This document shows, piece by piece, positions 12,600 to 27,427 of a DNA stretch of 46,722 nucleotides. The number at the start of each line of letters is the position of its first letter. Positions within the stretch are counted from its first letter, which is position 1. Origin of the DNA: a virus; IMG/VR virus record IMGVR_UViG_3300025097_000012, positions 1 to 46,722 of that record. The stretch is one strand, 5' to 3'. The position numbers and the translations under genes were made by a program. The notes under the pieces are model-generated. The model saw nothing but the letters and a program-made list of their open reading frames with translations. It was not told the origin of the DNA and made no database searches.

Positions 12600-12791
12600 C
12601 TATTCTTTTTGTGTAGTCTCGCGACTTTCGTTGACCAACTCTAAGTTATACGCCGGATAGTGTTTGCCATCGTGTAATGTGTAAATGGTACCATAACCCA
12701 CGAATCGCTCACGAACACCCGGCCGGCCGAGGGTCTTAACAACAACCATCACTCGACCATCGCGTGTTCTTACTAAATCACCTACTTTCAC
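12600..12791 (-). CDS. MKVGDLV array protein (63 aa)
   Basis: GTG start in the conserved seam (GTGAAAGTAGGTGA). M-K-V-G-D-L-V-R, R-V-M-V-V-V-K strand, G-Y-G-T-I-Y and a final L-E-L-V-N-E-S-R followed by a short extra tail (ETTQKE). It is the last gene of the first array and so has no successor to start. Predicted SH3/KOW-like barrel of unknown role. Confidence 0.75.
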   Translation of the reverse strand: MKVGDLVRTRDGRVMVVVKTLGRPGVRERFVGYGTIYTLHDGKHYPAYNLELVNESRETTQKE

Positions 12792-13005
12792 TGATTACCT
12801 CTAATTCGTCAATGTTCCATTCTATAACATGTCCGCTACAGTGCAGCACTTCCACATCAATTGTATAGGCACTCCCGCATTCCCCGCAGCATGGCGAGCG
12901 TTCCCACGAAGCGAGAACGATACCAATTAGGGAATACACGCGTGTTCCTGTATGGTTTTCGCTCCCCAGTGTGTTCAGACACCGCACTAAATCACCGACG
13001 TTCAT
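12778..13005 (-). CDS. MKVGDLV array protein (75 aa) with Cys cluster
   Basis: MNVGDLVRC start, L-I-G-I-V-L strand, then C-C-x-x-C (residues 38-42) that could bind zinc, and the seam C terminus L-E-V-I-S-E-S-R. The last 14 nt overlap the next gene, with GAGGT (codons E-V) acting as its Shine-Dalgarno. Confidence 0.75.
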   Translation of the reverse strand: MNVGDLVRCLNTLGSENHTGTRVYSLIGIVLASWERSPCCGECGSAYTIDVEVLHCSGHVIEWNIDELEVISESR

Positions 13006-13012
13006 AACACAC

Positions 13013-13114
13013 TTAAGTTTGCTTCAGGAATGCAGCTACAAAGGCGAGAACTTCAAACCGAAACTCCCATATAATGATGGCTACTACTGCTGTAACTAAT
13101 CTATCTCTCCACAT
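13013..13114 (-). CDS. Tiny membrane protein (33 aa)
   Basis: ATG 13114 is one base after the stop of the upstream array gene. MWRDRLVTAVVAIIIWEFRFEVLAFVAAFLKQT forms one hydrophobic helix. Function unknown; its place inside a coupled operon and clean frame support it. Confidence 0.5.
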   Translation of the reverse strand: MWRDRLVTAVVAIIIWEFRFEVLAFVAAFLKQT

Positions 13115-13116
13115 GT

Positions 13117-13320
13117 TTACCCCGCACTTACCACTTCGATATCACGGTGCCATACTCTTTGTGTATATGAAGTCACACTACCAAATGCTGACCATCTTAC
13201 CACGTAACGAATACCAAGCTCGGGGTTAAGCATATCGACGGGCGCTATTCCCAGAATAATGCCCAGCACGGGATCGAGTGACATGTCGTCTCTTACCTTC
13301 ACCAGATCACCTACTTTCAC
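13117..13320 (-). CDS. MKVGDLV array protein (67 aa)
   Basis: The frame extends further, but the seam GTG at 13320 is the start (V-K-V-G-D-L-V-K-V). L-G-I-I-L-G-I, Y-V-V-R-W-S and I-E-V-V-S-A-G complete the family pattern. The C terminus lacks E-S-R because the next gene does not begin in the seam. Confidence 0.75.
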   Translation of the reverse strand: MKVGDLVKVRDDMSLDPVLGIILGIAPVDMLNPELGIRYVVRWSAFGSVTSYTQRVWHRDIEVVSAG

Positions 13321-13525
13321 TGATAACCTCAAACGCGCGCCCCGAAAGAGAATGTACGTATTCAAACTTCGGAAACAAAATCATATGGTAGTGGTGCTGT
13401 TGGTTCACGATAAAACCAATCTCACCCTTGATCGCATATTTCATTGGAATACAACACTGCGTTTTCTTATCAACTCCAGCGGTCGATGGTTGCCATATAC
13501 ACCGAACCAGATCACCGACTTTCAC
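13307..13525 (-). CDS. MKVGDLV array protein (72 aa)
   Basis: Seam GTG at 13525; V-K-V-G-D-L-V-R-C-I-W, a middle with C-C-I-P, E-I-G-F-I-V-N strand and F-E-V-I-S-E-S-R. Overlaps both neighbours by 14 nt through the seam. Confidence 0.75.
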   Translation of the reverse strand: MKVGDLVRCIWQPSTAGVDKKTQCCIPMKYAIKGEIGFIVNQQHHYHMILFPKFEYVHSLSGRAFEVISESR

Positions 13526-13733
13526 TGATAACCTCCAAACACTCGGCGTCGATCCAACTTGGTTCGCGGGCCCCATTCAAGAGCACCCAAGCGTTATGTT
13601 TTCCGCCTCGTACGACCAGCCCAATCAGTTGCCTTTTGTTGCTCCCCCGACGCCGGACAACACGCGCTGGGGGTCCAGAAGGCGTATCATAACTTTCACA
13701 AAATGAATATAGAACCATATCACCGGGTTGCAT
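13512..13733 (-). CDS. MKVGDLV array protein (73 aa)
   Basis: ATG at 13733 opens MQPGDMVLY. R-Q-L-I-G-L-V-V-R and W-V-L-L-N-G strands, ending L-E-V-I-S-E-S-R. The upstream seam here has a variant sequence (ATGCAACCCGGTGA) but keeps exactly 14 nt of overlap. Confidence 0.75.
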   Translation of the reverse strand: MQPGDMVLYSFCESYDTPSGPPARVVRRRGSNKRQLIGLVVRGGKHNAWVLLNGAREPSWIDAECLEVISESR

Positions 13734-13917
13734 TGATTAGCACCATGTCGCTTGTCGAAATTGCATATGGGTGTAGCTTACCGTTGATCATCACCTTCCA
13801 CCAACGTTTAGGCGTCGAGGAAGGTTGGCAAACATGAGAGCCGATGATAAGACCCATCTTTCCATCATACTGTGGATAGCAAACCATACAAAGTCTAACC
13901 AAATCACCGGCTTTCAT
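13720..13917 (-). CDS. MKVGDLV array protein (65 aa)
   Basis: ATG at 13917 opens MKAGDLVRL. M-G-L-I-I-G-S strand, W-W-K-V-M-I-N-G strand, and V-L-I-N-A-T-R at the end, where the usual I-S-E-S-R has changed together with the successor's start. Confidence 0.75.
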   Translation of the reverse strand: MKAGDLVRLCMVCYPQYDGKMGLIIGSHVCQPSSTPKRWWKVMINGKLHPYAISTSDMVLINATR

Positions 13918-14054
13918 CAGACTCTTCCATATTGCATGAGGTACATCCCGAAGCACATGAGTTTCCACCCTAACCAGCCTCTTAAATCAGCGGCTACTCT
14001 GTTCATGCGAACACTCCGAAAGCGTCCCGGCGATACCACGTCACCGACTTTCAT
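13917..14054 (-). CDS. Degenerate MKVGDLV array protein (45 aa)
   Basis: Starts MKVGDVVSPGRF in a standard seam, but the middle lacks the family strands and the end (M-Q-Y-G-R-V) is not the seam. It joins the next gene by TGATG instead. It may be a remnant whose C-terminal half was lost by a frameshift or deletion. Confidence 0.5.
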   Translation of the reverse strand: MKVGDVVSPGRFRSVRMNRVAADLRGWLGWKLMCFGMYLMQYGRV

Positions 14055-14250
14055 TTACTGCCTCCAGATGATAACGAAAGTACCAGTTGCCTGCGTCACG
14101 GACGCCAACGAATTCGGGAGCCAATGTATAAAACCACTTCGCTCGATATTCGCGGTGCCACTGCCGTTCGGCGTCCACTGTTTCCCTTATTTCCGTTATG
14201 ATACCCATAGTTCCATCGGTGCGTAAACGCACCAGATCACTGACTTTCAT
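14041..14250 (-). CDS. MKVGDLV array protein, duplicate of the 24.0 kb gene (69 aa)
   Basis: M-K-V-S-D-L-V-R-L-R-T-D-G-T-M-G-I-I-T, E-Y-R-A-K-W-F-Y-T and N-W-Y-F-R-Y-H-L-E-A-V-N-E-S-R are shared almost unchanged with the gene at 23964-24191; the two differ mainly by an indel in the middle. This is the clearest link between the two arrays. Confidence 0.8.
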   Translation of the reverse strand: MKVSDLVRLRTDGTMGIITEIRETVDAERQWHREYRAKWFYTLAPEFVGVRDAGNWYFRYHLEAVNESR

Positions 14251-14254
14251 AACG

Positions 14255-14431
14255 TTACCTGCTCGACACCGCACTAATCACCTCGCACTTCTGGATGTAG
14301 GACATGGGCAACCACCCAATGTTTCCGTTATTAATACAAATGACTTTCGCGCCCTTTCCGGCGTCAATGGCCACAATGATACCATGGTCCTGAGGGAATT
14401 CAAAATCTCTGATGAGATCACCGACTGTCAT
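14255..14431 (-). CDS. MKVGDLV array protein (58 aa)
   Basis: ATG at 14431 opens MTVGDLIRDF; G-I-I-V-A-I-D, K-V-I-C-I-N-N-G strands and C-E-V-I-S-A-V-S-S-R at the end. The final overlap is replaced by a short gap before the next start. Start overlap with the upstream gene is exactly 14 nt. Confidence 0.7.
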   Translation of the reverse strand: MTVGDLIRDFEFPQDHGIIVAIDAGKGAKVICINNGNIGWLPMSYIQKCEVISAVSSR

Positions 14432-14615
14432 TGATCACCTCTAAATATTTTTCGTTCACCACTACCCTGTCACCGTGAATAAGCACACACCAAAAAATAT
14501 CGGTCGCAGGGCGAGGAGGCAGAAGAGGCGATGCTCGATTAACAATCAATCCAACCGTCCATGCCGCAGGTCCGGTCGGTGGCTGCGATGGTTTTACCAA
14601 GTCACCGACTGTCAT
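14418..14615 (-). CDS. MKVGDLV array protein (65 aa)
   Basis: MTVGDLVKP start, V-G-L-I-V-N strand, W-C-V-L-I-H-G-D strand, and Y-L-E-V-I-N-D-S-R. The seam variant ATGACAGTCGGTGA gives N-D-S-R instead of S-E-S-R. Confidence 0.75.
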   Translation of the reverse strand: MTVGDLVKPSQPPTGPAAWTVGLIVNRASPLLPPRPATDIFWCVLIHGDRVVVNEKYLEVINDSR

Positions 14616-14829
14616 TGATCACCTCCAGATCGCTGCTGCGAAACTGGTGAATAAGTCCGGTGCAACTCACCAACACGTCCCAGGCATCGCCTCGGACAGC
14701 AATTCGCATAGAAGGAGGGTACTTTTTGAGAATGATGCCAGTCTGATACCTGGGATCGTAGCTATGCGGAGCCGCAGCGGGCGGGTAGGCATGGTACCAC
14801 CGGAATTTTACGAGATCGCCAGTTTTCAT
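14602..14829 (-). CDS. MKVGDLV array protein (75 aa)
   Basis: MKTGDLVKFRW start, Q-T-G-I-I-L-K strand, W-D-V-L-V-S strand and L-E-V-I-N-D-S-R. It overlaps the upstream gene by ATGA and the downstream one by the 14-nt seam. Confidence 0.75.
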   Translation of the reverse strand: MKTGDLVKFRWYHAYPPAAAPHSYDPRYQTGIILKKYPPSMRIAVRGDAWDVLVSCTGLIHQFRSSDLEVINDSR

Positions 14830-14972
14830 TTGAACACCATTACATCCTGACGAACAAGCCAGTGCCCGTTATGGAGTTGAATGCAGCTTGAGAGTTCATG
14901 AGTCTGAACAATGATACCAGTCGTGCCCTTGAGGGGTCCGACTAATACCCAAACCAGATCCCCAACTCTCAC
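14826..14972 (-). CDS. MKVGDLV array protein (48 aa)
   Basis: GTG start opens V-R-V-G-D-L-V-W-V; K-G-T-T-G-I-I-V-Q and C-I-Q-L-H-N-G-H-W-L-V strands follow, matching the minimal barrel. It is the shortest complete member. The GTGA overlap with the upstream gene and ATGA with the downstream one show coupling without the seam. Confidence 0.65.
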   Translation of the reverse strand: MRVGDLVWVLVGPLKGTTGIIVQTHELSSCIQLHNGHWLVRQDVMVFK

Positions 14973-15169
14973 GCTTCGCCCGCATGCGCGGTAGCAGCGA
15001 AGACAGCAGCGAACTGGGCGCGAATTTCGGGCGTCAGTTGCCCCTCGGTCTCAGCCCGCACCATTTCGGCGTAGAGCCCCATCTGAAGGACGATAGCCCC
15101 CAGCGCATGCTCTGAGCGCTCCAGCGGCCCACGCTCGACAGTCGGAGAAAGGGGAATCGGATCGATCAC
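14969..15169 (-). CDS. Small helical protein (66 aa)
   Basis: GTG start overlapping the upstream stop (GTGA). Ala-rich and helical throughout, ending A-A-T-A-H-A-G-E-A. Not an SH3-like member and not recognised. Probably a soluble small protein; its operon position ahead of the array is the only clue. Confidence 0.6.
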   Translation of the reverse strand: MIDPIPLSPTVERGPLERSEHALGAIVLQMGLYAEMVRAETEGQLTPEIRAQFAAVFAATAHAGEA

Positions 15170-15363
15170 TGTTGCTCCCGCTGATATTCGATGTCGTTGG
15201 CCAGCAGCAGCACTTGACGCCTAAGCTCGATGGACATGGCGCGCTCAGAGCCGGGCTTTGCGCTGGTCTTGCCCTCGCCAGCAGTACCCAGCACTTCAGC
15301 GGCAAGCTCAAGGGCTTCCTGAAGTGCTTCATACTCGTTCAAAGTAAGTTCCAGTTTAATCAT
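15166..15363 (-). CDS. Small helical protein (65 aa)
   Basis: MIKLELTLNEYEALQEALELAAEVL is a beta strand plus amphipathic helix; a second helix follows after a Gly/Lys linker. The layout resembles small two-helix dimeric proteins, but no family is recognised. Second gene of the transcript from the 15.7 kb promoter. Confidence 0.6.
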   Translation of the reverse strand: MIKLELTLNEYEALQEALELAAEVLGTAGEGKTSAKPGSERAMSIELRRQVLLLANDIEYQREQQ

Positions 15364-15365
15364 GT

Positions 15366-15647
15366 CTATCCCAGAGCCAGAATTTCAGCGATCTGCGCAG
15401 CAGAAAGATGCTCGACGCTAATCATCCGGACCTTGTGGACCGTGATCTCGGCACCCGGGGAGCGTCGAGCGCGGACAGAGCCACCCTCGACGGCGAGAAC
15501 GTACTCGCCCCGGTTCTCGCGGCGCATGCGGAAAGTGCCGGTAGCCTTAATGCCCGCCTTCTTGAGCGCGGCGCGAATCTGACGCTTGCCGTCAGTCCAT
15601 GCGACGGCAGAGGTGCCGGGAGTAGTCAAGAGGGTTCCGATAGTCAT
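15366..15647 (-). CDS. Small basic protein, first gene of the array operon (93 aa)
   Basis: ATG at 15647 (the frame runs further but the promoter lies in that part) opens MTIGTLLTTPGTSAVAW. Residues 20-45 are basic with R-A-A-L-K-K-A-G-I-K-A, then strands R-G-E-Y-V-L-A-V-E-G-G. The end is helical (LSAAQIAEILALG). It may bind nucleic acid through the basic helix; not recognised. Confidence 0.65.
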   Translation of the reverse strand: MTIGTLLTTPGTSAVAWTDGKRQIRAALKKAGIKATGTFRMRRENRGEYVLAVEGGSVRARRSPGAEITVHKVRMISVEHLSAAQIAEILALG

Positions 15648-15692
15648 GAATGAAGTCCTGGGAGTTGAGGGGGAAGTTCTGACTCTGAGTAC

Positions 15693-15747
15693 ATTATCCC
15701 ACGGGAGGACGCAGAAGTCAACCACGAAGTTGTCAAGAGGTTGTCAA
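15693..15747 (-). promoter_or_regulatory. Triple-TTGACA promoter module (operon of array 1)
   Basis: Minus-strand order: TTGACA (15742-15747), TTGACA (15731-15736), TTGACT (15716-15721, the -35), 17 bp, GATAAT (15693-15698). Box starts are 11 and 15 bp apart. The TGA stop of the upstream gene (15744-15746) lies within the first box. It appears to drive about 14 genes down to 12.6 kb. Confidence 0.85.
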
Positions 15748-15968
15748 GAGATTTTCTCAAGCCACATCGGATGAAAACGTAGGATGGAAGTACCAAATTG
15801 AACATCGTAGACATTCGAGGGCATCGGCGTGCCGTACAGGTCGCGCACTACCACGACAATGATCCCGGTGCGACCGGCGGGCAATTTCGGATCGGAAGTC
15901 CCCGGGCGGATCCGTACGAGATCCCCAACCTGAAACTCAGGCGCGGAATGTTTATGTTTCGTACCCAT
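15744..15968 (-). CDS. VGDLV-type SH3/KOW-like protein (74 aa)
   Basis: ATG at 15968 opens MGTKHKHSAPEFQVGDLVRI; R-T-G-I-I-V-V-V-V-R and Y-D-V-Q-F-G-T-S strands follow. The family motif is preceded by a 12-residue polar extension. Its last codon and stop (TCT TGA) run into the promoter module of the next operon. A GTTTGTTT octamer is just upstream of the start. Confidence 0.7.
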   Translation of the reverse strand: MGTKHKHSAPEFQVGDLVRIRPGTSDPKLPAGRTGIIVVVVRDLYGTPMPSNVYDVQFGTSILRFHPMWLEKIS

Positions 15969-16170
15969 CAAGGTTTGTTTGTGGAAGCATGAAACTCGGC
16001 GCGGCATGCGACTCAGGCGGAACGTAAGAAGTCATAGCCGGCTCAGGCGGAAGCCCAGCGATAATTTCCGAGAGGATATTACGCAAGGCTTCAATCTCGT
16101 CTTCAACCTTTTGATCTTTCTCAGCCTTGCATGCGGCTCGATACTCGGCAAGGTTTACTAATTCGCCCAT
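15952..16170 (-). CDS. Small helical protein (72 aa)
   Basis: MGELVNLAEYRAACKAEKDQ begins a long charged helix (residues 5-38) followed by a Pro-rich tail. L-N-L-A-E-Y-R-x-A-type starts are common in small phage proteins of unknown role. Its end overlaps the next start by 17 nt. Confidence 0.6.
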   Translation of the reverse strand: MGELVNLAEYRAACKAEKDQKVEDEIEALRNILSEIIAGLPPEPAMTSYVPPESHAAPSFMLPQTNLDGYET

Positions 16171-16171
16171 G

Positions 16172-16474
16172 TTACTTGTAGTCGCGCAGAAGTGAAAGCT
16201 GCCAAACTTTGGGGTGCATCATCAGGTCAACGCCGGAACGCCGGGCAATCCCGATATGACAGCTTGTAGTCTGAGATCGGTAGGATCCCGATGCCGTATA
16301 ATCTGCCAAAACTGTGTCACCGGACGCTGACCGCATGCCAATGTGCAGCAAGTAAGAATACAAGCGCGTACCGTCTGTATGCAGAGTGTTGCGACTGTTC
16401 TTTGCTTCGACACCGCGCTTCCAGGCAGCGACTACGCCGGCGTTAGTTGTTCGTTTCATCTTTGTTTTGCTCAC
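16172..16474 (-). CDS. Small protein of unknown function (100 aa)
   Basis: GTG start sharing GTGA with the stop of the metallopeptidase/VWA gene. Basic N terminus (MSKTKMKRTTNAG), then L-H-I-G, T-S-C-H-I-G-I-A-R-R strands and a Trp/Leu C terminus. Co-transcription with the VWA gene suggests, but does not show, a shared role. Confidence 0.6.
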   Translation of the reverse strand: MSKTKMKRTTNAGVVAAWKRGVEAKNSRNTLHTDGTRLYSYLLHIGMRSASGDTVLADYTASGSYRSQTTSCHIGIARRSGVDLMMHPKVWQLSLLRDYK

Positions 16475-17745
16475 ACGTCGATAGCGATTACTCGCTCGTT
16501 GGTTTGAAAGTAGGGGCGATCTGCGTAGATCTTAGTCGTCATCCACATGCGCTGACATGCGCTTGCGATTGGCTTAGGGGCACAGAGATCGGTCAGGATA
16601 ATGTGACCGTCGAAACTATGCGCGTTGACGTAGCGCGTTGGAGCGTTAAAGCAGGTTCCACCACACATAACACGTTCCCACTTGCGGGTTTGGCCTTTTT
16701 TCCAAACATAAATCTTATCTTCTCCGACTGCAGAGTCAAAGGGGATCACCGTGAACTCGGCAATATCAGCCAGTTCGTTCAACTCGGAGAAGAACGTAGC
16801 AAGCATTTGATCGTCCACGGATCCACTTTGATCGATGCTAATAGCGATCTTGGCATGCCGGCGCACGCGCTTGCCCGGATGGATGCGCGGGTAGCGCTTG
16901 TTAAGCCGGCGCGGTGTGCTGCGCTTGTCTGATCGCTGTGAAGTCTTAACAAAGTACCGAAGCACCTTCTTCCAGTCCACGCGAGTAACGATCCGCTCCA
17001 AAATATCCTTTCGCATGCCGGAAGAGACGGATCCCCAGTTGCGCGACTTCTCGGCATCTTCTGCGGCCTTTTTGATTGCGTCCTTCAACCGCTCCTTAGC
17101 AATCTCGCCAGCAGTGCCCTCGGTCTCGCCGAAAGCGTCGTGATCATCGAACGAATCCATGCCGCCGAAAGCATCCCCGGGCTGACCTTCGCCGGGCTGA
17201 CCTTCGCCGGGCTGACCTTCGCCGGGTTCGCCTTCGCCGGGTTCGCCTTCGCCGTGCTCCTGTTGCTTCTTCTTGAGCGCTTCAAGATACCATTCATAGG
17301 TCTTGTTGGCGGGAAGGTCTGAAAACGGACCCTCTCCGGGGATACAGCCCTTCATGGGCTCGCCCGAAGGCATCACCGGACCCGGCTCCGCATCATTCGG
17401 CAGCTTGCCCGCCATTTCTGGAAGCCCGTTGATCGCGAGATCCATCGCGATGTTGTCGATGCGTCGGATGCCTTCGCTGGGCTTGCGTCCGGTGACGTGC
17501 TCCAGAATGATATGATAGAATTCGTGCATCAGGACGCCCAGCTTATGATCGTCCTTCAACTGTGACATGAACTCCGGGTTATACAGCAACTCGAACTGCT
17601 GACGGTCGGGGTTCACGCGCACACCGGCGGTTTCGATTGCGGTCGTCGGGGTCTTGTCGATCCGTCGCGACAACGACGCGAAAAACGGCTCACTCATGAG
17701 GAGGCGAGCGGTGTGCATGTTGAGATCGAAAGGAGGGGTAGACAT
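16471..17745 (-). CDS. Metallopeptidase-like protein with VWA domain, MoxR partner (424 aa)
   Basis: Residues 1-150 carry a zinc-peptidase motif H74-E-F-Y-H78 in a helix (LMHEFYHIILEHV), as in DUF2201-type putative metallopeptidases. An acidic Gly-rich linker with five G-E-G-[QE]-P repeats (166-190) follows. Then a helical segment and a VWA-like domain with the MIDAS motif D305-Q-S-G-S and a later G-G-T-C-F-N-A-P-T. VWA proteins of this sort act with MoxR AAA+ ATPases in complex remodelling. The ATPase is encoded 1 kb upstream but under another promoter. Substrate unknown; maturation or disassembly of a complex is the family expectation. Confidence 0.8.
   Translation of the reverse strand: MSTPPFDLNMHTARLLMSEPFFASLSRRIDKTPTTAIETAGVRVNPDRQQFELLYNPEFMSQLKDDHKLGVLMHEFYHIILEHVTGRKPSEGIRRIDNIAMDLAINGLPEMAGKLPNDAEPGPVMPSGEPMKGCIPGEGPFSDLPANKTYEWYLEALKKKQQEHGEGEPGEGEPGEGQPGEGQPGEGQPGDAFGGMDSFDDHDAFGETEGTAGEIAKERLKDAIKKAAEDAEKSRNWGSVSSGMRKDILERIVTRVDWKKVLRYFVKTSQRSDKRSTPRRLNKRYPRIHPGKRVRRHAKIAISIDQSGSVDDQMLATFFSELNELADIAEFTVIPFDSAVGEDKIYVWKKGQTRKWERVMCGGTCFNAPTRYVNAHSFDGHIILTDLCAPKPIASACQRMWMTTKIYADRPYFQTNERVIAIDV
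17178..17254 (-). repeat. Five tandem 15-bp repeats inside the VWA gene
   Basis: Unit ccgggctgaccttcg (plus strand), with the last copies changed to ttcgcc. They encode G-E-G-[QE]-P and make a flexible linker. Copy number may vary between relatives. Confidence 0.8.
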
Positions 17746-17773
17746 GTGGGCGAATTCCTTAGCTTACTCTATA

Positions 17774-17828
17774 AGTATACAGGCAGAACGGGAGAAGGTC
17801 AAGAGGATTCTTGTCAAGAGGGTGTCAA
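17774..17828 (-). promoter_or_regulatory. Triple-TTGACA promoter module (VWA gene)
   Basis: TTGACA (17823-17828), TTGACA (17812-17817), TTGACC -35 (17797-17802), 17 bp, TATACT (17774-17779). Spacing 11 and 15. The first box contains the stop of the upstream gene (17825-17827). Confidence 0.85.
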
Positions 17829-18100: not shown

Positions 18101-18123
18101 GGGCTATCTCCAGTAGATGATTC

Positions 18124-18178
18124 ATTATCTCACAAACGAGCGCAGAAGTCAAGAGAAAAGTTGTCAAGGGACTGTCAA
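18124..18178 (-). promoter_or_regulatory. Triple-TTGACA promoter module
   Basis: TTGACA (18173-18178), TTGACA (18162-18167), TTGACT (18147-18152), 17 bp, GATAAT (18124-18129). Spacing 11 and 15. It drives the TTG-started gene at 17.8-18.1 kb. Confidence 0.85.
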
Positions 18179-18747: not shown

Positions 18748-19824
18748 TCACCCGCCCAGAATGGCAACAAGGTGATCACTCACCCGCCCCCCGGCGCTGG
18801 TAGTCGCCTTGTGAAGCGCGATCACGTTGTCCACACAATCGGCGTCTCCCAGAACGGTCCACATCTTCATGGCCACCTCGGAAGGGAGCGAAACGAAGTA
18901 GTCCGCAAGGTTCTGGATGCGCACGTCGGTCAGCGCTGCCTTGAAGGTCTCCGCTGCCTCAAACTTCTCGATCATAGCAGCGTGATCGTTGATCCCCCAC
19001 TCGGCAGTCTTATCGATCTGCCCATGGTCAAGAAGATCTTCAATGGTAACCTGCCACTGGTAGTTTACCACGAAGTCCTTAAGGGTAACCGCAGCCTCAA
19101 AGCCCAGGAATGCGTTAGCGAGATTGAAGAGGAGATCGAGATCGCCCTTATCCTCGAAAACGCCGGATGGAGCAGCGGTATCGTTGAACCGCTTCCAGCT
19201 ACGACGAGAAGGATAAACCTTGTTAGGCTCGAAGTCGCTGCGGTGTTCCAAGTGATTGCGGTTCTGGTTAATGAAGTCCCAGACTACGCTATCGACCTTG
19301 CCATTAGCCCACTTGAGCCAATCTTCATCGGTCGGATCCACGTCAAAGACGGTCCAACGGTCCAGTTCAGCCGGATCCATTTCGCCGACTTGGTACTGCG
19401 CGCCATGGTCACCACCGTTGACGGCTGCGACGATCAGGGTTTCCGGGTGCAAGTGCCACCCGTTGATCTTGCGGCTATCGGTAAGCTCAAAGAGACCCTG
19501 ACGAACCTCCATAGTCGCCCGGTCCACTTCATCGAGGAACAAGAGCACGGGCTGTTCGCATGCGGTGACAAGCCAGTCGGGCGCGTTCCACGTCGTCGCC
19601 TTGCGACCGTTGATCGCGGTGTCTGCCGTATCGGGCAAGCCGAGAAGATCGCCCTCGGTCATCTGAGACGCGCGCCGCTCGACAACGGGAAGGTTGCGCT
19701 GCGCTGCGATCAGGTAGACCACTTCGGACTTACCGACGCCATGGCGACCGCGAAGAAGCACGGGAAGGCGAGCGTCGAGGATATGAGGGGCGACGGACAG
19801 GAAAGTAGCGAAATCAACGGACAT
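18748..19824 (-). CDS. MoxR-type AAA+ ATPase (358 aa)
   Basis: Walker A G-R-H-G-V-G-K-S (26-33), Walker B L-L-F-L-D-E-V-D (94-101) and a following R-x-x-x-x-x-x-L-x-E-L-T region fit MoxR/ChlI-like AAA+ ATPases, which use ATP to remodel complexes and usually pair with a VWA protein. The partner is at 16.5-17.7 kb. Length is typical. ATG 19824 has a GGAG-like sequence upstream and lies about 50 nt below the -10 of its own triple-box promoter. Confidence 0.85.
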   Translation of the reverse strand: MSVDFATFLSVAPHILDARLPVLLRGRHGVGKSEVVYLIAAQRNLPVVERRASQMTEGDLLGLPDTADTAINGRKATTWNAPDWLVTACEQPVLLFLDEVDRATMEVRQGLFELTDSRKINGWHLHPETLIVAAVNGGDHGAQYQVGEMDPAELDRWTVFDVDPTDEDWLKWANGKVDSVVWDFINQNRNHLEHRSDFEPNKVYPSRRSWKRFNDTAAPSGVFEDKGDLDLLFNLANAFLGFEAAVTLKDFVVNYQWQVTIEDLLDHGQIDKTAEWGINDHAAMIEKFEAAETFKAALTDVRIQNLADYFVSLPSEVAMKMWTVLGDADCVDNVIALHKATTSAGGRVSDHLVAILGG

Positions 19825-19871
19825 GGTAGAATCTCCAAAGGAGTGGGGGGTTGTCTCTATCTTACTTACTA

Positions 19872-19926
19872 AGTATACAGGAAGATCGGGAGAAGGTCAA
19901 GAGGTTTCCTGTCAAGAGAATGTCAA
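19872..19926 (-). promoter_or_regulatory. Triple-TTGACA promoter module (MoxR)
   Basis: TTGACA (19921-19926), TTGACA (19910-19915), TTGACC (19895-19900), 17 bp, TATACT (19872-19877). Spacing 11 and 15. The -35 to -10 part is nearly identical to the VWA promoter at 17.8 kb, so the two partners may be co-regulated. The upstream stop is inside box 1. Confidence 0.85.
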
Positions 19927-21265: not shown

Positions 21266-21289
21266 AGGTTCCTCGATGTTTACTTAGTA

Positions 21290-21343
21290 AGTATACAGGA
21301 AGATCGCGAGAAGGTCAAGGGTTTTTTGTCAGGAGAAGGTCAA
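21290..21343 (-). promoter_or_regulatory. Triple-box promoter module
   Basis: TTGACC (21338-21343), CTGACA (21327-21332), TTGACC (21313-21318), 17 bp, TATACT (21290-21295). Spacing 11 and 14. A fourth partial box, CTGACA, lies at 21348-21353. The upstream stop TGA is inside box 1. Confidence 0.8.
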
Positions 21344-22061: not shown

Positions 22062-22089
22062 ATGAGTTTTACTCCGGGGAAAGGTTTAT

Positions 22090-22959
22090 CTAACCCTTAA
22101 GGGTTCTGAAGTGTGCGATAATGTGAGGCGACTCCTCAGTGAGCCACCAAGCAGGGGGTGAAATTTTCTCGCCCGAAACACCGCTTACGATGACATGAGA
22201 GCGCCACCCTACTTTTTCGTTTTGTGGATCCCAGCCACCGAGTGTGCTTCCGGTGGTATCCGAGAGGGCCCCGAGGGTGTCATCGAAGCGCGCAGCCACG
22301 GACGCTGAGCCGTCTTGCCTCTCGACGTGATAGTGGGGGATTTTCACAGTATGCCGCCCCTCAGATGGGCTACCCAAGCAGTCGATGCGCGCAAGAATCA
22401 CCGGCTCTCCGGGGCTCGTATAGTTGATCTCAGACCACTCAATAGTGCGAACCATGTGGAGCGCGTCACGTCGTTCCCACAGGCCCTTAAAATAGCCGGT
22501 AACGCTCACCTTAAGAAGCGCACCGTGAGCCACCCCAGCGGCGCGCAGACTATCGAGAACAGCTTTTCGGTACGCACGATTAACGTCGTGTGCCCGGGCA
22601 ATATCAGCCTTGAGCGTGGCACATGTGCGCCGGGTGTGGCCGATCCCTGTCTTGCCATCGCTCCATCCAACTTTATGCTTACAGTAGGAACAGCGGCGCT
22701 TAGGTCCGCGCTGACCTTTCGGAAGCACCGTGCCGGTAATCGGGTGTACGCCGGTGCGTCTTGCGATCTGATCTGCGAGGCTGTTAACGCTGTTTTCATA
22801 ACTGGTTAAATCTGTACCCAGCTTTTCTACTTCAGCCATTCGCGTCCGGAACCGCTTAAGTTGTCCCTCCAGGCGCGCCGTTTCCACCGGGCACGATCGC
22901 TTATTGTGACCGGACTTATAACATACGCTGCACCTAACGGTTCCGCTCCAATTTCCCAT
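22090..22959 (-). CDS. CCHC zinc-knuckle protein (289 aa)
   Basis: ATG at 22959 has GGAG ten bases upstream. Residues 10-23 are an exact CCHC knuckle, C-x2-C-x4-H-x4-C, and residues 90-113 hold a longer version (C-S-Y-C ... G-H-T-R-R-T-C). A coiled segment separates them (26-66). The C-terminal 150 residues are beta-rich and not recognised. Zinc knuckles bind single-stranded RNA or DNA, so an RNA-binding role is the best guess. It is the only gene between two promoters other than the small gene downstream. Confidence 0.7.
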   Translation of the reverse strand: MGNWSGTVRCSVCYKSGHNKRSCPVETARLEGQLKRFRTRMAEVEKLGTDLTSYENSVNSLADQIARRTGVHPITGTVLPKGQRGPKRRCSYCKHKVGWSDGKTGIGHTRRTCATLKADIARAHDVNRAYRKAVLDSLRAAGVAHGALLKVSVTGYFKGLWERRDALHMVRTIEWSEINYTSPGEPVILARIDCLGSPSEGRHTVKIPHYHVERQDGSASVAARFDDTLGALSDTTGSTLGGWDPQNEKVGWRSHVIVSGVSGEKISPPAWWLTEESPHIIAHFRTLKG

Positions 22960-23008
22960 GAGTAATCTCCTCTCAGTTAAAGTAAAATGTTTTCTGACTT
23001 GATGACTT

Positions 23009-23063
23009 ATTATCTCATGAGCGAGAGCAGAAGTCAACCATTAAGTTGTAAAGGGAATGTCAA
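23009..23063 (-). promoter_or_regulatory. Triple-TTGACA promoter module (zinc-knuckle gene)
   Basis: TTGACA (23058-23063), TTTACA (23047-23052), TTGACT (23032-23037), 17 bp, GATAAT (23009-23014). Spacing 11 and 15. Upstream stop TGA in box 1. Confidence 0.85.
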
Positions 23064-23263
23064 GGGACGATTTCCAAACTTGAGCCTACCATACGAACGG
23101 GCTTCGCCTCGCCAGCCCAAAGGACAAGCGGATCCCCCTTGTCGGGATTCACGCGCCCGAAATGATCGAAGGCGATCAAGATGCCGACGATTTCGCGCCG
23201 GCGAAAAGACCCGTGCTTGCTCCGAACCAGGGAGCCGGGGGGGATATCGCACCTTGTAATCAT
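23060..23263 (-). CDS. PGSLV-type SH3/KOW-like protein (67 aa)
   Basis: I-P-P-G-S-L-V-R-S-K-H-G, I-V-G-I-L-I-A-F and P-L-V-L-W-A-G strands, ending S-S-L-E-I-V-P; a family member with a changed first motif. ATGA overlap with the upstream gene; CCT TGA enters the promoter downstream. Confidence 0.65.
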   Translation of the reverse strand: MITRCDIPPGSLVRSKHGSFRRREIVGILIAFDHFGRVNPDKGDPLVLWAGEAKPVRMVGSSLEIVP

Positions 23264-23451
23264 GCTTTCGCCAACTCTTTCAAAGTGGCGATTGCAAGGT
23301 CAATATCGCCCTGGTCGTTGTTCCGCACCCGAAGGTTCCAGAGAGCCCTCGAAATGAATCCCCTTGAAAGCTCCATACGAAGCTGGGGCATGTCCATATT
23401 CACGAGGATTTCAACGAGGATTGCGATTTTCATCTGTCGTTCTGTGATCAT
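23260..23451 (-). CDS. Small helical protein (63 aa)
   Basis: Begins MITERQMKIAILVEILVNM; helical throughout (ELSRGFISRALWNLRVR). The promoter -10 ends only seven bases upstream of the ATG, so the message is leaderless or uses the ATG at 23433. Function unknown. Confidence 0.55.
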   Translation of the reverse strand: MITERQMKIAILVEILVNMDMPQLRMELSRGFISRALWNLRVRNNDQGDIDLAIATLKELAKA

Positions 23452-23457
23452 GTATAC

Positions 23458-23511
23458 ATTATCTCATATGCGGAGGCGGAAGTCAAGCCGATCTTGTCAA
23501 GAGAGTGTCAA
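23458..23511 (-). promoter_or_regulatory. Triple-TTGACA promoter module
   Basis: TTGACA (23506-23511), TTGACA (23495-23500), TTGACT (23481-23486), 17 bp, GATAAT (23458-23463). Spacing 11 and 14. Upstream stop TGA in box 1. Confidence 0.85.
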
Positions 23512-23801
23512 CCCTCCCCTTTCAGATTCTGCCAGTGGGCATCCACGAACAGCGCGCAGTCCTTCAGTCCTGATAACCGAGGTTCTTCAGTCATCTCGCT
23601 AATGCGACAGTCAGCAAGATGCTTTTCGCACCGTTGACCGTAAAGGCGAATAAACTTGATAAGGGCGATCTTGCTAAAAGAGACTTTCCCGCTCCCGAAT
23701 GCGGCATGCTTTACGTGCTTCTGCCTCAGCATACGCGCGATCTTGTAAGCGTCTTCCAGTCCGTCAGGATCGGTAGTGTCGAGTACGATTGTCATTTTCA
23801 T
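23508..23801 (-). CDS. Small basic protein (97 aa)
   Basis: MKMTIVLDTTDPDGLEDAYKIARMLRQKH is a strand plus helix; a basic middle follows (S-K-I-A-L-I-K-F-I-R), then A-L-F-V-D-A-H. It ends GGT TGA inside a promoter box. Four Cys/His residues in the second half are not in a clear zinc pattern. Not recognised. Confidence 0.55.
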   Translation of the reverse strand: MKMTIVLDTTDPDGLEDAYKIARMLRQKHVKHAAFGSGKVSFSKIALIKFIRLYGQRCEKHLADCRISEMTEEPRLSGLKDCALFVDAHWQNLKGEG

Positions 23802-23977
23802 TTGATAATCTCCATATCGTCGGCGTGGACCCCGAGGAGGACTTTCCCGCCCACAAAATGAACCTCAAACAGATCCTCATAATCGAGGATGTTGCCCCAT
23901 ATCAAGCCAATGGTGCCGGGCGATACGGCGATACCGCGCGCGACCGTTACTATGCGAACTAAATCACCGACTTTCAT
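23798..23977 (-). CDS. MKVGDLV array protein (59 aa)
   Basis: Seam ATG at 23977: M-K-V-G-D-L-V-R-I; G-T-I-G-L-I-W and F-E-V-H-F-V-G-G-K-V strands, ending M-E-I-I-K at an ATGA overlap. It is the last member of this run of array 2. Confidence 0.7.
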   Translation of the reverse strand: MKVGDLVRIVTVARGIAVSPGTIGLIWGNILDYEDLFEVHFVGGKVLLGVHADDMEIIK

Positions 23978-24191
23978 TTACTGCCTCCAGATGATAACGA
24001 AAGTACCAGTTGCCTGCTCCACAGACCGCACGAAAGTTTGGATCCATCGTATAAAACCATTTCGCTCGGTATTCATGCGGAAAGGCGCGGGTGAAGTCGC
24101 TGCGGTGCTCCTTCGGATCTGTTTCTCTTATTCCTGTTATGATACCCATAGTCCCATCGGTGCGTAAGCGCACCAGATCACCGACTTTCAT
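23964..24191 (-). CDS. MKVGDLV array protein, duplicate of the 14.0 kb gene (75 aa)
   Basis: M-K-V-G-D-L-V-R-L-R-T-D-G-T-M-G-I-I-T, E-Y-R-A-K-W-F-Y-T and the whole C terminus N-W-Y-F-R-Y-H-L-E-A-V-N-E-S-R match the copy at 14041-14250. This copy carries six more residues in the middle. Both seams are exact 14-nt overlaps. Confidence 0.8.
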   Translation of the reverse strand: MKVGDLVRLRTDGTMGIITGIRETDPKEHRSDFTRAFPHEYRAKWFYTMDPNFRAVCGAGNWYFRYHLEAVNESR

Positions 24192-24348
24192 TTAGAACCT
24201 CAAGGTTGTTATCTGTTCCGCAGAACACACCCTCTGGAAACAGTACCACCCACACATTACAGGTCCACGCTGGATTTCGTTCTTTCTTCTCTACGATCAA
24301 CCCCACAATATTCTGTTGGGTATGTCTTACCAGATCACCGACTTTCAC
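24178..24348 (-). CDS. MKVGDLV array protein (56 aa)
   Basis: Seam GTG at 24348: V-K-V-G-D-L-V-R-H; V-G-L-I-V-E-K-K, C-N-V-W-V-V-L-F strands; ends L-E-V-L-N-E-S-R. A compact complete member. Confidence 0.75.
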   Translation of the reverse strand: MKVGDLVRHTQQNIVGLIVEKKERNPAWTCNVWVVLFPEGVFCGTDNNLEVLNESR

Positions 24349-24496
24349 TGATCACCTCGGCCAGTCCGGAGCACACGCGGCGCCTGCCTTGCTGCGTAAG
24401 AACCCAAAAGGCACCGCCAGAATAGACCGACTCGACCACGATCCCGATCAGCGCCCCTTCGGGTATGGTCCAGCGCACCAGATCACCGACTTTCAT
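24335..24496 (-). CDS. MKVGDLV array protein (53 aa)
   Basis: ATG at 24496: M-K-V-G-D-L-V-R-W; L-I-G-I-V-V-E-S and F-W-V-L-T-Q-Q-G-R-R strands; ends A-E-V-I-S-E-S-R. The frame is open far upstream but the motif sets the start. Confidence 0.75.
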   Translation of the reverse strand: MKVGDLVRWTIPEGALIGIVVESVYSGGAFWVLTQQGRRRVCSGLAEVISESR

Positions 24497-24497
24497 T

Positions 24498-24698
24498 TTA
24501 GTCTCCCAGCTTGACAGGTTTGCGGCAGGCACGTTTGTTTGCTTGTTTCTTCTTATCCTGTTGGACAAGGCGAAGACCGCGCGCGCGAACCATTTCGCCA
24601 CCATCGGCGTAGAACTCGGCGCGTTCGATGGCGCGCCGGGCACGAACATACTTCATGATCTCTTCGCGGCGAGGATTTTTTGATCGTTTGCGACCCAT
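24498..24698 (-). CDS. Small highly basic protein (66 aa)
   Basis: ATG at 24698 (TAATG overlap) opens MGRKRSKNPRREEIMKY; Arg/Lys-rich throughout with a helical centre (ARRAIERAEFYADGGEMVRARGL) and K-K-K-Q-A-N-K-R near the end. Likely binds nucleic acid. Contains one GTTTGTTT octamer. Confidence 0.6.
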   Translation of the reverse strand: MGRKRSKNPRREEIMKYVRARRAIERAEFYADGGEMVRARGLRLVQQDKKKQANKRACRKPVKLGD

Positions 24699-24793
24699 TA
24701 CATCGGCTCCATAAGATAGGCGGACATCCATGCAAAATACACGAACGCGAAAATCATGACCGCGCCCGCTACGTCTTCAAAATGCTGCTTCAT
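24698..24793 (-). CDS. Tiny membrane protein (31 aa)
   Basis: MKQHFEDVAGAVMIFAFVYFAWMSAYLMEPM has one hydrophobic helix (residues 9-27). AGAGGA seven bases upstream, about 25 nt below a triple-box -10, and a TAATG junction to the next gene support expression. Confidence 0.6.
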   Translation of the reverse strand: MKQHFEDVAGAVMIFAFVYFAWMSAYLMEPM

Positions 24794-24820
24794 CTGAATC
24801 CTCTTTCTTGATGATGATCT

Positions 24821-24874
24821 ATTATCCCACAAGTCCAGCCAAAAGTCAAGCCGATCCTGTCAAGAGGATGTCAA
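24821..24874 (-). promoter_or_regulatory. Triple-TTGACA promoter module
   Basis: TTGACA (24869-24874), TTGACA (24858-24863), TTGACT (24844-24849), 17 bp, GATAAT (24821-24826). Spacing 11 and 14. Upstream stop TGA in box 1. Confidence 0.85.
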
Positions 24875-25086
24875 CCCTGATAATCGTCGTTCAAAATTAA
24901 GTCTTCCTTGAGAACGCGGATCTCACGATTTTTTGCGCCCACAAGGCGCACCGTGAAGATCGTCCAATGCCCTGGCTGGAAGGGTGTTTTAGATATCTGG
25001 TGGTGTGCCTTAATGATGAATCCAAGTTGCCCCAGAGGCCGCCCGAGTCCTGCTCTCGTAATCCTAACAAGGTTTCCGGGCTTCAT
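24871..25086 (-). CDS. MKPGNLV-type SH3/KOW-like protein (71 aa)
   Basis: M-K-P-G-N-L-V-R-I, Q-L-G-F-I-I-K-A and W-T-I-F-T-V-R-L-V strands, L-K-E-D-L-I-L. Family member outside the seam system (ATGA overlap upstream). Confidence 0.7.
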   Translation of the reverse strand: MKPGNLVRITRAGLGRPLGQLGFIIKAHHQISKTPFQPGHWTIFTVRLVGAKNREIRVLKEDLILNDDYQG

Positions 25087-25427
25087 GCTGTCAAGGTCGT
25101 CCGGTTAACTTCGATGTTATAACCCCGTTCGAGCGCATGATCACCATCCCACACACAAGCCGCCCACATGCGAAAAACCTGCCACAAGTGCTCAACTGGC
25201 ATTTCGCGTAATTCGTGGAGCGCCCATACCAGACTATCATCGGCAGGTTTTTCGCAATCGGGTCCAGGGAAGTGGACATCCATCGCGTGGATTGCTCCCT
25301 CTTTGTCAGTAGCGCCCAGGAATTCCAGCACTGCGGCAATTGCGGCAATTGCGGCACCCTTCTCGGTCAAGTGCGTAGAACATGATAGTTCCCAATCGTG
25401 CATTGTTTGCATTACCCAAATGGTCAC
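25083..25427 (-). CDS. Protein of unknown function (114 aa)
   Basis: GTG start sharing GTGA with the upstream stop. T-E-K-G-A-A-I-A-A-I-A-A-V-L-E-F-L is a small-residue helix; V-W-A-L-H-E-L-R-E-M and L-W-Q-V-F-R-M-W-A-A-C-V-W are further helices, and H-D-W-E-L and H-F-P-G-P-D-C give many His/Asp. Not recognised. Confidence 0.6.
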   Translation of the reverse strand: MTIWVMQTMHDWELSCSTHLTEKGAAIAAIAAVLEFLGATDKEGAIHAMDVHFPGPDCEKPADDSLVWALHELREMPVEHLWQVFRMWAACVWDGDHALERGYNIEVNRTTLTA

Positions 25428-25768
25428 GGGCTTCTCTTTTCTTTGCTCTCGGCCAACAGTTTTTCAACCCACGCACCATCAAACTCGGCTGCATACTGAT
25501 CGCGAAGCACCAACAATGTTTCGCCGTCCTTCACTTCATTCCGCAGCTTGTAGCCGGGGATAAGAAACTCAGTGCCGGGAGGCATACCGATGAAGACGGA
25601 ACACACCGCGTAAGGCACAGCCTTCCAGCGCGTTTTTTGTTCGCCAGTGCGCTTGTCTTTCCAGCTACGCCGGAAGCGCCGGAAGCGCATGTCAATCACG
25701 CGAGCCTGAAGCATGCCGCCATCGGGCTTGCGGATCATCACGATGTCGTCTTTGTGTAGATAAGCCAT
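25424..25768 (-). CDS. Protein with SH3-like start (114 aa)
   Basis: M-A-Y-L-H-K-D-D-I-V-M-I-R, L-Q-A-R-V-I-D-M-R-F-R-R-F-R-R strongly basic (22-48), then V-C-S-V-F-I-G and a helical end (DGAWVEKLLAESKEK). D-D-I-V resembles the G-D-L-V motif but the body differs. First gene of its transcript. Confidence 0.6.
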   Translation of the reverse strand: MAYLHKDDIVMIRKPDGGMLQARVIDMRFRRFRRSWKDKRTGEQKTRWKAVPYAVCSVFIGMPPGTEFLIPGYKLRNEVKDGETLLVLRDQYAAEFDGAWVEKLLAESKEKRSP

Positions 25769-25800
25769 CTATCGGAGTCCTCCTTTGACTCTATGTATAC

Positions 25801-25854
25801 ATTATACGCTCAAATAGCGCGCAAGTCAAGCCGATCCTGTCAAGAGATTGTCAA
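25801..25854 (-). promoter_or_regulatory. Triple-TTGACA promoter module
   Basis: TTGACA (25849-25854), TTGACA (25838-25843), TTGACT (25824-25829), 17 bp, consensus TATAAT (25801-25806). Spacing 11 and 14. Upstream stop TGA in box 1. Confidence 0.9.
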
Positions 25855-26204
25855 TCGATCTCGTCAGGGTCATAGACTCCCCAATCATCCTGTCCGAAGC
25901 CGCGATAAAGCGTGGTCCCGTCAGCGCGCTTCAAGTAGATATAGCTGACATAGGAGCTTTCTTCTGGGCAATCGGGATCTGTCAATAGCTCAACGCTACC
26001 TGATGCGGCGTGATAATGGGGGCCACTATCCGTCAAGGATGCCATACCGCATGTAGTCGTCCCCTTCAAAACGATCCCATAAAGTTCATTATGCGAACGT
26101 TTGTTTACTTGGCCCCACATATGGTTAGGGTAACCGTCTAACTGACAATAAGTGCCGAGATAACCATCGGCGGTTTCAATGTAAATGTGTGAGCGCGTGC
26201 CCAT
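25851..26204 (-). CDS. MGTRSxI-type phage protein (117 aa)
   Basis: MGTRSHIYIETADGYLGTYCQLDGYP is the start of a small protein type often met in phages: a strand, then Y-C-x-x-D-G-Y-P. G-M-A-S-L and a S-Y-V-S-Y-I-Y-L strand follow. Function unknown. GAGG upstream of ATG. GTTTGTTT at 26099 lies in the coding region. Confidence 0.7.
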   Translation of the reverse strand: MGTRSHIYIETADGYLGTYCQLDGYPNHMWGQVNKRSHNELYGIVLKGTTTCGMASLTDSGPHYHAASGSVELLTDPDCPEESSYVSYIYLKRADGTTLYRGFGQDDWGVYDPDEID

Positions 26205-26221
26205 GTTTTTGTCCTCTCTCT

Positions 26222-26593
26222 CTAAAAGCTGATGCGGATCCTGGTATACGGGTAAATGCCCTCAAAGCCATAGCCGCGACAAACAATATCTTCACTCTCT
26301 TCGCCAGTGCGAACGAAGCGATACATCTCGCAAAGATCGATCTCCTCTCCGTCGATCTTGATCATGTCACCCTCGTCTAACTTGTCCATAAAGTTCTCAA
26401 CAGCCTGGACTCCCGCATAGGACTCGTACCACTTGATGCCCTTCCAGTGAAACATGAGTGCATCCTCTCGGTCGATCACCGCGTCGGCATCGTGACACAA
26501 CTCATAAGCCCTCGGGCAGCTTGTAAATACGTGTACTAACATACCCTCGATGCGCTTGTCTACGGCCAGCACGACCTCAGAACGATAACCCAT
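26222..26593 (-). CDS. MGYRSEV-type phage protein (123 aa)
   Basis: MGYRSEVVLAVDKRIEGML starts another recurrent phage protein type of unknown function; the body has H-W-K-G-I-K-W-Y, D-E-G-D-M-I-K-I-D-G-E and R-I-R-I-S-F at the end. AAGGAA lies upstream of the ATG. First gene below a consensus promoter and in tandem with the MGTRS gene, a pairing that suggests related roles. Confidence 0.7.
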   Translation of the reverse strand: MGYRSEVVLAVDKRIEGMLVHVFTSCPRAYELCHDADAVIDREDALMFHWKGIKWYESYAGVQAVENFMDKLDEGDMIKIDGEEIDLCEMYRFVRTGEESEDIVCRGYGFEGIYPYTRIRISF

Positions 26594-26623
26594 GTTTGCT
26601 TTCCTTTCTTGAGCGTTAAATAT

Positions 26624-26678
26624 ATTATAGACGATATCGCGCCGAAAGTCAACCCCAAAGTTGTCAAGGGAATGTCAA
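26624..26678 (-). promoter_or_regulatory. Triple-TTGACA promoter module
   Basis: TTGACA (26673-26678), TTGACA (26662-26667), TTGACT (26647-26652), 17 bp, consensus TATAAT (26624-26629). Spacing 11 and 15. Upstream stop TGA in box 1. Confidence 0.9.
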
Positions 26679-26923
26679 GCCTCTGAGGCGCTGACAAGTT
26701 CCAGCCATCCAAGTTTTACTTTCTTGCGAACTTGGAGCGTGTCAGTATAACAAACGTCTACTGCTCCACCATAGGTTCCCGCAAAGTGTCCCATACCGTG
26801 AGCTATCATTTCGCGATCTGTTGCGTCAATGAAGCGCGCCGAGTACACATCGCACATGACGGTGGCCAACCTCCCTCCAAAACGGAACCTTACCAAATCG
26901 CCTTTCTTATAATTCATTTTCAT
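26675..26923 (-). CDS. KKGDLV-type SH3/KOW-like protein (82 aa)
   Basis: M-N-Y-K-K-G-D-L-V-R-F, L-A-T-V-M-C-D-V strands, D-V-C-Y-T-D-T-L-Q-V and W-L-E-L-V-S. The start lies in the 3' end of the upstream gene with a 17-nt overlap, a variant of the 14-nt seam (INENEL instead of ISESR). Confidence 0.7.
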   Translation of the reverse strand: MKMNYKKGDLVRFRFGGRLATVMCDVYSARFIDATDREMIAHGMGHFAGTYGGAVDVCYTDTLQVRKKVKLGWLELVSASEA

Positions 26924-27095
26924 TTATAACCTCGCACTGGAATGCGCACCATTCTACTTCTTTCCCATTATAAAGCACAACAATATCCTTAAAGCCAGAA
27001 GGGGATGTGATAGGTCGAAGAAACAGTCCAATGTGTATTTTCGTAGGCACACCGCAGGTGTAATCTGCCCATTTCACCAGATCACCGACTTTCAC
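26907..27095 (-). CDS. MKVGDLV array protein (62 aa)
   Basis: Seam GTG at 27095: V-K-V-G-D-L-V-K-W; I-H-I-G-L-F-L and D-I-V-V-L-Y-N-G-K-E-V-E-W strands; ends C-E-V-I-N-E-N-E-L. Complete member. Confidence 0.75.
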   Translation of the reverse strand: MKVGDLVKWADYTCGVPTKIHIGLFLRPITSPSGFKDIVVLYNGKEVEWCAFQCEVINENEL

Positions 27096-27258
27096 TGATC
27101 ACCTCCAAATAATGACGAGGGTCGGGATAGGGCTTCGGCATGCCGTTCCATTGTACCATGAACCGCCCATCAAGCGGATTGACGCCGACAATGATACCAA
27201 TGAGGCCTTCACTCCGGCGAGGCCATCGATTCCGTCGGACCAGATCACCGACTTTCAT
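27082..27258 (-). CDS. MKVGDLV array protein (58 aa)
   Basis: ATG at 27258: M-K-V-G-D-L-V-R-R; L-I-G-I-I-V-G-V, F-M-V-Q-W-N-G strands; ends Y-L-E-V-I-S-E-S-R. Both ends are exact 14-nt seams. Confidence 0.75.
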   Translation of the reverse strand: MKVGDLVRRNRWPRRSEGLIGIIVGVNPLDGRFMVQWNGMPKPYPDPRHYLEVISESR

Positions 27259-27427
27259 TGATCACCCTCCAATCGCGAGCGCGCTGCCACCCGTCGCCTT
27301 CATCCAGCAACCTGATCCAGTTCACGTCGCCGTCGATGGCCATGAAGTTTAACTCTATTACGAGAAACACTTTGCCAATCTCTTTGGTTGATGGACACCG
27401 ATGCTTTACCAGATCACCGACTTTCAT
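27245..27427 (-). CDS. MKVGDLV array protein (60 aa)
   Basis: ATG at 27427: M-K-V-G-D-L-V-K-H; G-K-V-F-L-V-I-E-L, V-N-W-I-R-L-L strands; ends W-R-V-I-N-E-S-R. ATGA with the upstream gene and seam with the downstream gene; first seam member of array 2. Confidence 0.75.
   Translation of the reverse strand: MKVGDLVKHRCPSTKEIGKVFLVIELNFMAIDGDVNWIRLLDEGDGWQRARDWRVINESR

Follow-up and report, generated by a model that had tools for sequence, protein, structure and literature searches.

The window analysed here is the whole of a 46.7-kb IMG/VR fragment (46,722 nucleotides; IMGVR_UViG_3300025097_000012), which carries on its minus strand about 20 small genes whose products start with M-K-V-G-D-L-V. 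Consecutive genes are linked by a short repeated sequence, here called the seam, and we consider it highly probable that the seam serves as a dual-coding joint and turns these small genes into interchangeable cassettes, which are shuffled by recombination without frameshift or loss of expression. In most cassettes the 3′ end (TTGGAGGTNATCA, encoding the last beta strand, L-E-V-I) would supply a ribosome-binding site for whichever gene comes next; each successor would in turn end its predecessor with a stop codon, and because neighbours would provide for one another in this way, any cassette could follow any other. Being common to all cassettes, the joint would also be where recombination takes place, presumably at short homology and by a UvsX-type or annealing pathway of the phage itself, and co-infecting relatives could add, drop, reorder and exchange whole genes, with reading frames and expression kept. 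By comparison of loci we established the anatomy and spread of the joint, breakpoints at it, rapid turnover of neighbours, gain and loss of single cassettes, transfer between lineages and purifying selection. Easy exchange may be what selection maintains.

The seam is composed of TTGGAGGTNATCA followed by RTGAAAGTCGGTGA (TTGGAGGTNATCA|RTGAAAGTCGGTGA). The first part stands directly before the start codon of seam genes, with most positions conserved at 65-95%, and is not conserved at first genes. Within it, GGAGGT forms a ribosome site about 5 bases from the start and also codes for the end of L-E-V, and then I. The cassette 5′ end, RTGAAAGTCGGTGAYTTGGT, codes for M-K-V-G-D-L-V. GTG is the start codon of 64% of seam genes, and ATG that of 79% of genes that follow no other family member. 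At Val-3, GTC makes up 85% of the valine codons at seams and 53% of those in first genes; within gene bodies its share is 20%. Read directly from the sequence, RTGAAAGTCGGTGA carries TGA at +1 and +11 and thus closes both other frames, so that an upstream gene out of frame with the cassette stops within 14 nt; for the same reason overlaps of 4 and 14 nt are the two common junction types. The overlap, the Shine-Dalgarno sequence and the GTG starts form an anatomy of the coupling type, which suggests that translation may be coupled across the seam. Several orphan seams (L060:7382-7561:+, L048, L026 and others) run on for a few codons to a stop and are probably remnants of lost successor genes.

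The initial annotation had listed 12 exact 14-nt overlaps in the window, and at all 12 the upstream stop and the downstream start do overlap by exactly 14 nt. The seam is not a chance pattern: with up to three mismatches the 24-nt pattern was found at 11 places, against 0 expected from 100 shuffles, and its core, TGAAAGTCGGTGA, gave 16 matches with at most two mismatches against 1.1 expected. The full 24-nt pattern is exact at only three places (13512, 24335 and 27082). That annotation had also proposed looking for the seam elsewhere and comparing array order. The 18-mer ATCARTGAAAGTCGGTGA was found in at least 118 viral-contig stretches, with order varying among relatives, and a family profile recovered 1215 genes in 119 loci. 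Exactly 14 nt are shared at 612 of the 743 close family junctions and 4 nt at another 68; in the fetched contigs, 14-nt overlaps join 205 of 252 family pairs versus 25 of 833 other gene pairs. It should be noted that non-family genes were called by longest ORF and that pair counts are correlated, gene pairs not being independent. The family genes all lie on one strand in each genome examined, and they fall into 858 clusters, 645 of which were seen once.

All 20 large seam-bearing records tested are T4-like and carry the major capsid protein gp23; a search for gp23 in the window fragment found none. In prokaryote genomes the 18-mer occurred in 17 stretches, of which 10 had no family open reading frame (ORF) and look like chance, and 7, on contigs of metagenome-assembled genomes with 3-12 family ORFs, are probably phage contigs, although this is not proven. 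Among 50,697 records of cultured phages we found no significant protein match and no array.

Gene order is not invariant among relatives; seam neighbours turn over far faster than gene order elsewhere, single cassettes come and go, and the seam is where sequence identity ends. First, genes more than 97% identical between contigs of different samples had the same seam neighbour 55 times out of 60. When family genes of two loci were 85-97% identical, their seam successor was kept in 12 of 59 cases, compared with 14 of 20 for other genes, and at 70-85% identity the corresponding counts were 6 of 74 and 28 of 51. Retention of seam neighbours thus drops as divergence grows (0.92, 0.20 and 0.08). 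Second, in contigs G012 and G022, whose flanking DNA is 96.7-98.4% identical, 34 of 34 core neighbours and 6 of 7 non-seam family neighbours were kept versus 0 of 6 seam neighbours (Fisher P = 2.6e-7 and 0.005, respectively); cassettes had moved between arrays, new cassettes had been inserted, and the non-seam block F4~F10~F9 stayed together. Between the more distant G020 and G023 (core identity 76%), 40 of 47 core and 0 of 8 seam neighbours were kept. Third, where genes at least 85% identical have different successors (mean of 44 junctions), identity remains high until about position +13, counted from the downstream start, and then drops to some 25%, reaching the random level by about +20; genes with different predecessors give the mirror-image profile. 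Finally, L007 and L009 (flanks 99.5-100% identical) differ by the presence or absence of one 176-bp cassette between exact 20-bp copies of ATGAAAGTCGGTGATTTGGT, and a second single-cassette difference separates L098 and L101. The contigs G012 and G021, which come from different samples, are alike along 27 kb save for one cassette.

Four-fold-site identity of shared cassettes (protein identity of at least 80%) was 71% between G012 and G020 and 88% between G012 and G023, compared with 33% and 35%, respectively, for core genes, including core proteins at least 80% identical. These synonymous sites indicate that cassettes cross lineages. Similar pairs made up 2 of 612 adjacent and 22 of 7121 non-adjacent cassette pairs; adjacent cassettes being no more similar than others, local tandem duplication was rejected as the main source of the arrays. 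Taken together, the four-fold sites and the dissimilarity of adjacent cassettes argue that arrays are built from a circulating pool and not by local duplication. The initial annotation had described the seam as a connector for duplication, insertion and loss of genes, which holds for gain, loss, reordering and exchange, the processes that dominate array change, but not for local tandem duplication as the main process.

The same data bear on a different reading, in which the seam amounts to translation coupling plus conserved protein ends, the arrays stem from ancient tandem duplication, and their order differs through fast turnover of the early region. Early regions of phages are variable, and the seam does combine a good Shine-Dalgarno sequence with GTG starts, which are weak, and with an overlap of stop and start. 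However, within the same arrays of G012 and G022 the non-seam links are stable and the seam links are not, identity breaks precisely at the seam, adjacent cassettes show no excess similarity, and synonymous sites are far more alike in shared cassettes than in core genes. We therefore regard this reading as unlikely.

With regard to the recombination machinery, all 22 large records examined had a RecA/UvsX-type protein match. A dedicated site-specific recombinase that recognizes the seam in the manner of integrons appears less likely still. The arrays do resemble integron cassette arrays, and the seam as single-stranded DNA folds weakly (z of -3.9 and -2.9), but no tyrosine integrase (PF00589) was found in 38 records, some possibly incomplete, by a search whose control was positive in all 14 genomes and whose scope left serine recombinases and host enzymes outside. 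A seam hairpin, either attC-like or translational, was rejected as well: positions -4 and +14 of the possible stem do not covary (P = 0.37), and at -2 the pair-breaking ATA is commoner than the pair-keeping ATT. Least probable of all is that the shuffling is an artefact of chimeric metagenome assemblies formed at short repeats in mixed viral populations, for although seams are repeats, chimeras would also have scrambled the neighbours of genes more than 97% identical, retention declines with divergence, exact shared seam runs are mostly shorter than 20 bp, and G012 and G021 match across samples.

Several points weigh against the dual-coding joint as a site of recombination maintained for exchange. 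Exact identity between two seams of one locus has a median of 12 bp, with 10% reaching 20 bp and 0.4% reaching 30 bp, and for RecA- or Red-dependent recombination about 30 bp is quoted (PMC2327257). Because the shared runs are below about 30 bp, annealing or replication slippage, or rare events combined with selection, would be needed. In addition, all seam data are metagenome-derived, with no isolate carrying an array in the collection searched, and selection for exchange is indistinguishable from selection for compact translation combined with recombination that occurs passively where alone the cassettes share sequence. A broader proposal is put forward more tentatively: the joint, closed in both other frames, may recombine while serving as stop, ribosome site and start, and the virus community may share an open pool of small genes that can be plugged in anywhere, with selection keeping the joint compatible across lineages, in a system that would not have been described before. 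We found no account of such a joint in the open-licence literature.

The initial annotation had attributed the conserved protein ends largely to the seam. This applies to E-S-R, which ends 413 of the 612 genes with a successor overlapping by 14 nt and none of the 495 family genes that lack seam DNA there; it is thus not needed where no successor follows. Since E-S-R is absent without seam DNA and also lies outside the predicted fold (mean pLDDT 90), it is dictated by the seam; a few family genes, including 12600-12791, read through fossil seams. It does not apply to L-E-V-I, at which the last strand of the predicted structure is placed and which, according to the model, belongs to the fold while also encoding the ribosome site. 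The cassette proteins are predicted to be single free-standing KOW/SH3-like barrels of about 50-75 amino acids. The model resembles KOW domains of Spt5 and NusG with TM-scores of about 0.7-0.84, but with an E-value of 0.002 at best, and the family profile matched NusG of T. maritima with an E-value of 2.9e-5. No cassette member had a match above the cut-off in Pfam or NCBIfam; among the window members scanned, 14826-14972 came closest to Pfam KOW (E 0.0013, 18.9 bits, the cut-off of 22.3 not being reached), and PHROG matches were few, weak and unnamed. The cassette genes have a pN/pS of 0.18 and, being under purifying selection, evidently work. Perhaps their products are early host-takeover or counter-defence factors, which is a speculative guess; the early protein MotB of T4, with its predicted KOW domain, offers a distant functional lead (PMC7827196). 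Membrane-helix-like proteins without the family fold also start inside seams (L031, L059, L028 and L100), one of them matching DUF2061 just above the cut-off, and the joint is therefore not confined to the KOW-like family. Another cassette class, with ..NNVWDYDLKLLSEKKP, usually stands last in its array without an E-S-R end (L101, L098 and L041; contigs G012, G021 and G022), and at several loci a gap of 52 nt separates it from the next array.

Most family genes of the window lie in three runs, near 12.6-15.0, 23.8-24.5 and 26.9-27.4 kb, and every feature is on the minus strand:

14826..14972, minus: first cassette gene of array 1, MRVGDLVWVL.., its end reaching 4 nt into the next gene
14602..14829, minus: cassette gene MKTGDLV..LEVINDSR, 14-nt overlap with 14418-14615
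14418..14615, minus: cassette gene MTVGDLV..LEVINDSR, 14-nt overlap with 14255-14431
14255..14431, minus: cassette gene MTVGDLIRDF..CEVISAVSSR, next gene after a 4-nt gap
14041..14250, minus: cassette gene MKVSDLVRLRTDGTMG..LEAVNESR, paralogue of 23964-24191
13917..14054, minus: ORF MKVGDVVSPGRF.., entered through a seam, no family-profile match, possibly a decayed or different cassette
13720..13917, minus: cassette gene MKAGDLVRLCM..LINATR, 14-nt overlap with divergent seam
13512..13733, minus: cassette gene MQPGDMV..LEVISESR, ending in an exact seam
13512..13535, minus: representative exact seam GAGGTTATCAGTGAAAGTCGGTGA, dual coding
13307..13525, minus: cassette gene VKVGDLVRCIW..FEVISESR, GTG start
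13117..13320, minus: cassette gene ending a run, ..IEVVSAG, without ESR or a following seam
12778..13005, minus: cassette gene MNVGDLV..LEVISESR
12600..12791, minus: last cassette gene of array 1, reading through the fossil seam LELVNESRETTQKE
24335..24496, minus: first cassette of array 2, MKVGDLVRWTIPEG..AEVISESR; a 91% identical relative in L097 has another successor
24178..24348, minus: cassette gene ..LEVLNESR, GTG start
23964..24191, minus: cassette gene ..LEAVNESR, paralogue of 14041-14250
23798..23977, minus: last cassette of array 2, ..DMEIIK, without ESR
27245..27427, minus: first cassette of array 3, ..WRVINESR
27082..27258, minus: cassette gene ..YLEVISESR, modelled as a five-stranded SH3/KOW barrel (mean pLDDT 90)
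26907..27095, minus: cassette gene ..CEVINENEL, altered seam into the next ORF at 26923

In the representative seam, the upstream gene reads EVISESR-stop and the downstream gene takes the Shine-Dalgarno GAGGT, a GTG start and V-K-V-G-D. Homology between the paralogues 14041-14250 and 23964-24191 is confined to the cassette, from ATG to seam stop. Not all junctions are equally regular: the 14-nt overlap at 13720 is genuine but matches the seam poorly (ATGCAACCCGGTGA), the ORF downstream of the 14041 junction (13917-14054) was missed by the family profile, and the start half of the motif occurs at 12992, 13904, 14237, 24483 and 27414 with no family gene ending there. The junction into 26923 and the end of the gene 12600-12791 look like altered or fossil seams.

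Elsewhere on the minus strand of the window, a dozen or more near-identical promoter-like sites of the form TTGACT-17-[GT]ATAAT or similar were seen (for example, at 15721, 18152, 20198, 21736, 23037, 23486, 24849, 25829, 26652, 27686, 27826 and 29662), each with extra TTGACA-like repeats upstream at short spacing; they are probably early promoters driving the seam-gene operons. A second promoter-like repeat class, TTGACC-17-TATACT, is common to three upstream regions on the same strand (17760-17828, 19858-19926 and 21280-21325). Judged by eye from the sequence, other genes include a metallopeptidase/von Willebrand-like protein (16471-17745) next to an AAA ATPase (18748-19824), a GroEL-like chaperonin (39385-40956), a ClpP-like protease (42569-43198) and an IMP-dehydrogenase-like gene (44950-45999). 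An N-terminus resembling MKLLLENWRKYLNE is common to 548-1321, 2236-2955, 2955-4124 and 4955-7582 and may be a second repeated start motif.

A large T4-like group thus links dozens of tiny genes by one short joint that ends one gene and starts the next. Such a joint, universal in both coding and homology, would be a concrete answer to how early genes can be shuffled rapidly with their expression intact. It also delimits small KOW-like proteins in a large set open to testing, and their order and content change more quickly than other parts of the genomes, as would be expected of tools in host conflict. The joint is, in addition, a design rule ready for use in gene arrays that must withstand insertions, losses and changes of order.

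Among known systems, the T4 protein MotB and the KOW proteins NusG and Spt5 share with the cassettes a predicted SH3-like barrel, the model resembling the Spt5/NusG domains, whereas the cassettes are single free-standing domains in large divergent sets without a family match at cut-off. In cluster K mycobacteriophages, the available part of one report describes the repeated SAS/ESAS elements (consensus GGGATAGGAGCCC) immediately upstream of gene starts (PMC3203893). Like the seam, they are short repeats that place a ribosome site where numerous small phage genes begin; in contrast, they precede genes of many families and are not described in that part as stop-start overlaps, seam-like shuffling is not reported for them there, and the seam differs in sequence and lies inside both reading frames. 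In lambdoid phages, module exchange is explained by recombination in short conserved flanking ('boundary') sequences between genes (PMC2327257). At seams, too, relatives switch abruptly between similar and dissimilar DNA at a short sequence conserved between genes, and modules move between lineages (four-fold sites 0.71-0.88 versus 0.33-0.35). However, many genes per genome reuse the seam, which is read in two frames and leaves the order of genes free, beyond mere exchange at a fixed position. Integron gene-cassette arrays (attC/IntI) have been reported in some phage genomes (PMC9892861). Seam and integron arrays are both head-to-tail and made of mostly unrelated small genes on one strand; order and content differ between close relatives, breakpoints fall at a short shared element, and cassettes are gained, lost and reordered at that shared site. 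Unlike integrons, seam arrays showed no tyrosine integrase among the 38 possibly incomplete records, and a single protein fold dominates their cassettes; attC is a non-coding hairpin, whereas the seam, with its weak fold and lack of covariation, is not a structured site of that kind. Seam arrays are best read as an integrase-free, integron-like cassette system in which the joint is a coding overlap of stop, ribosome site and start.

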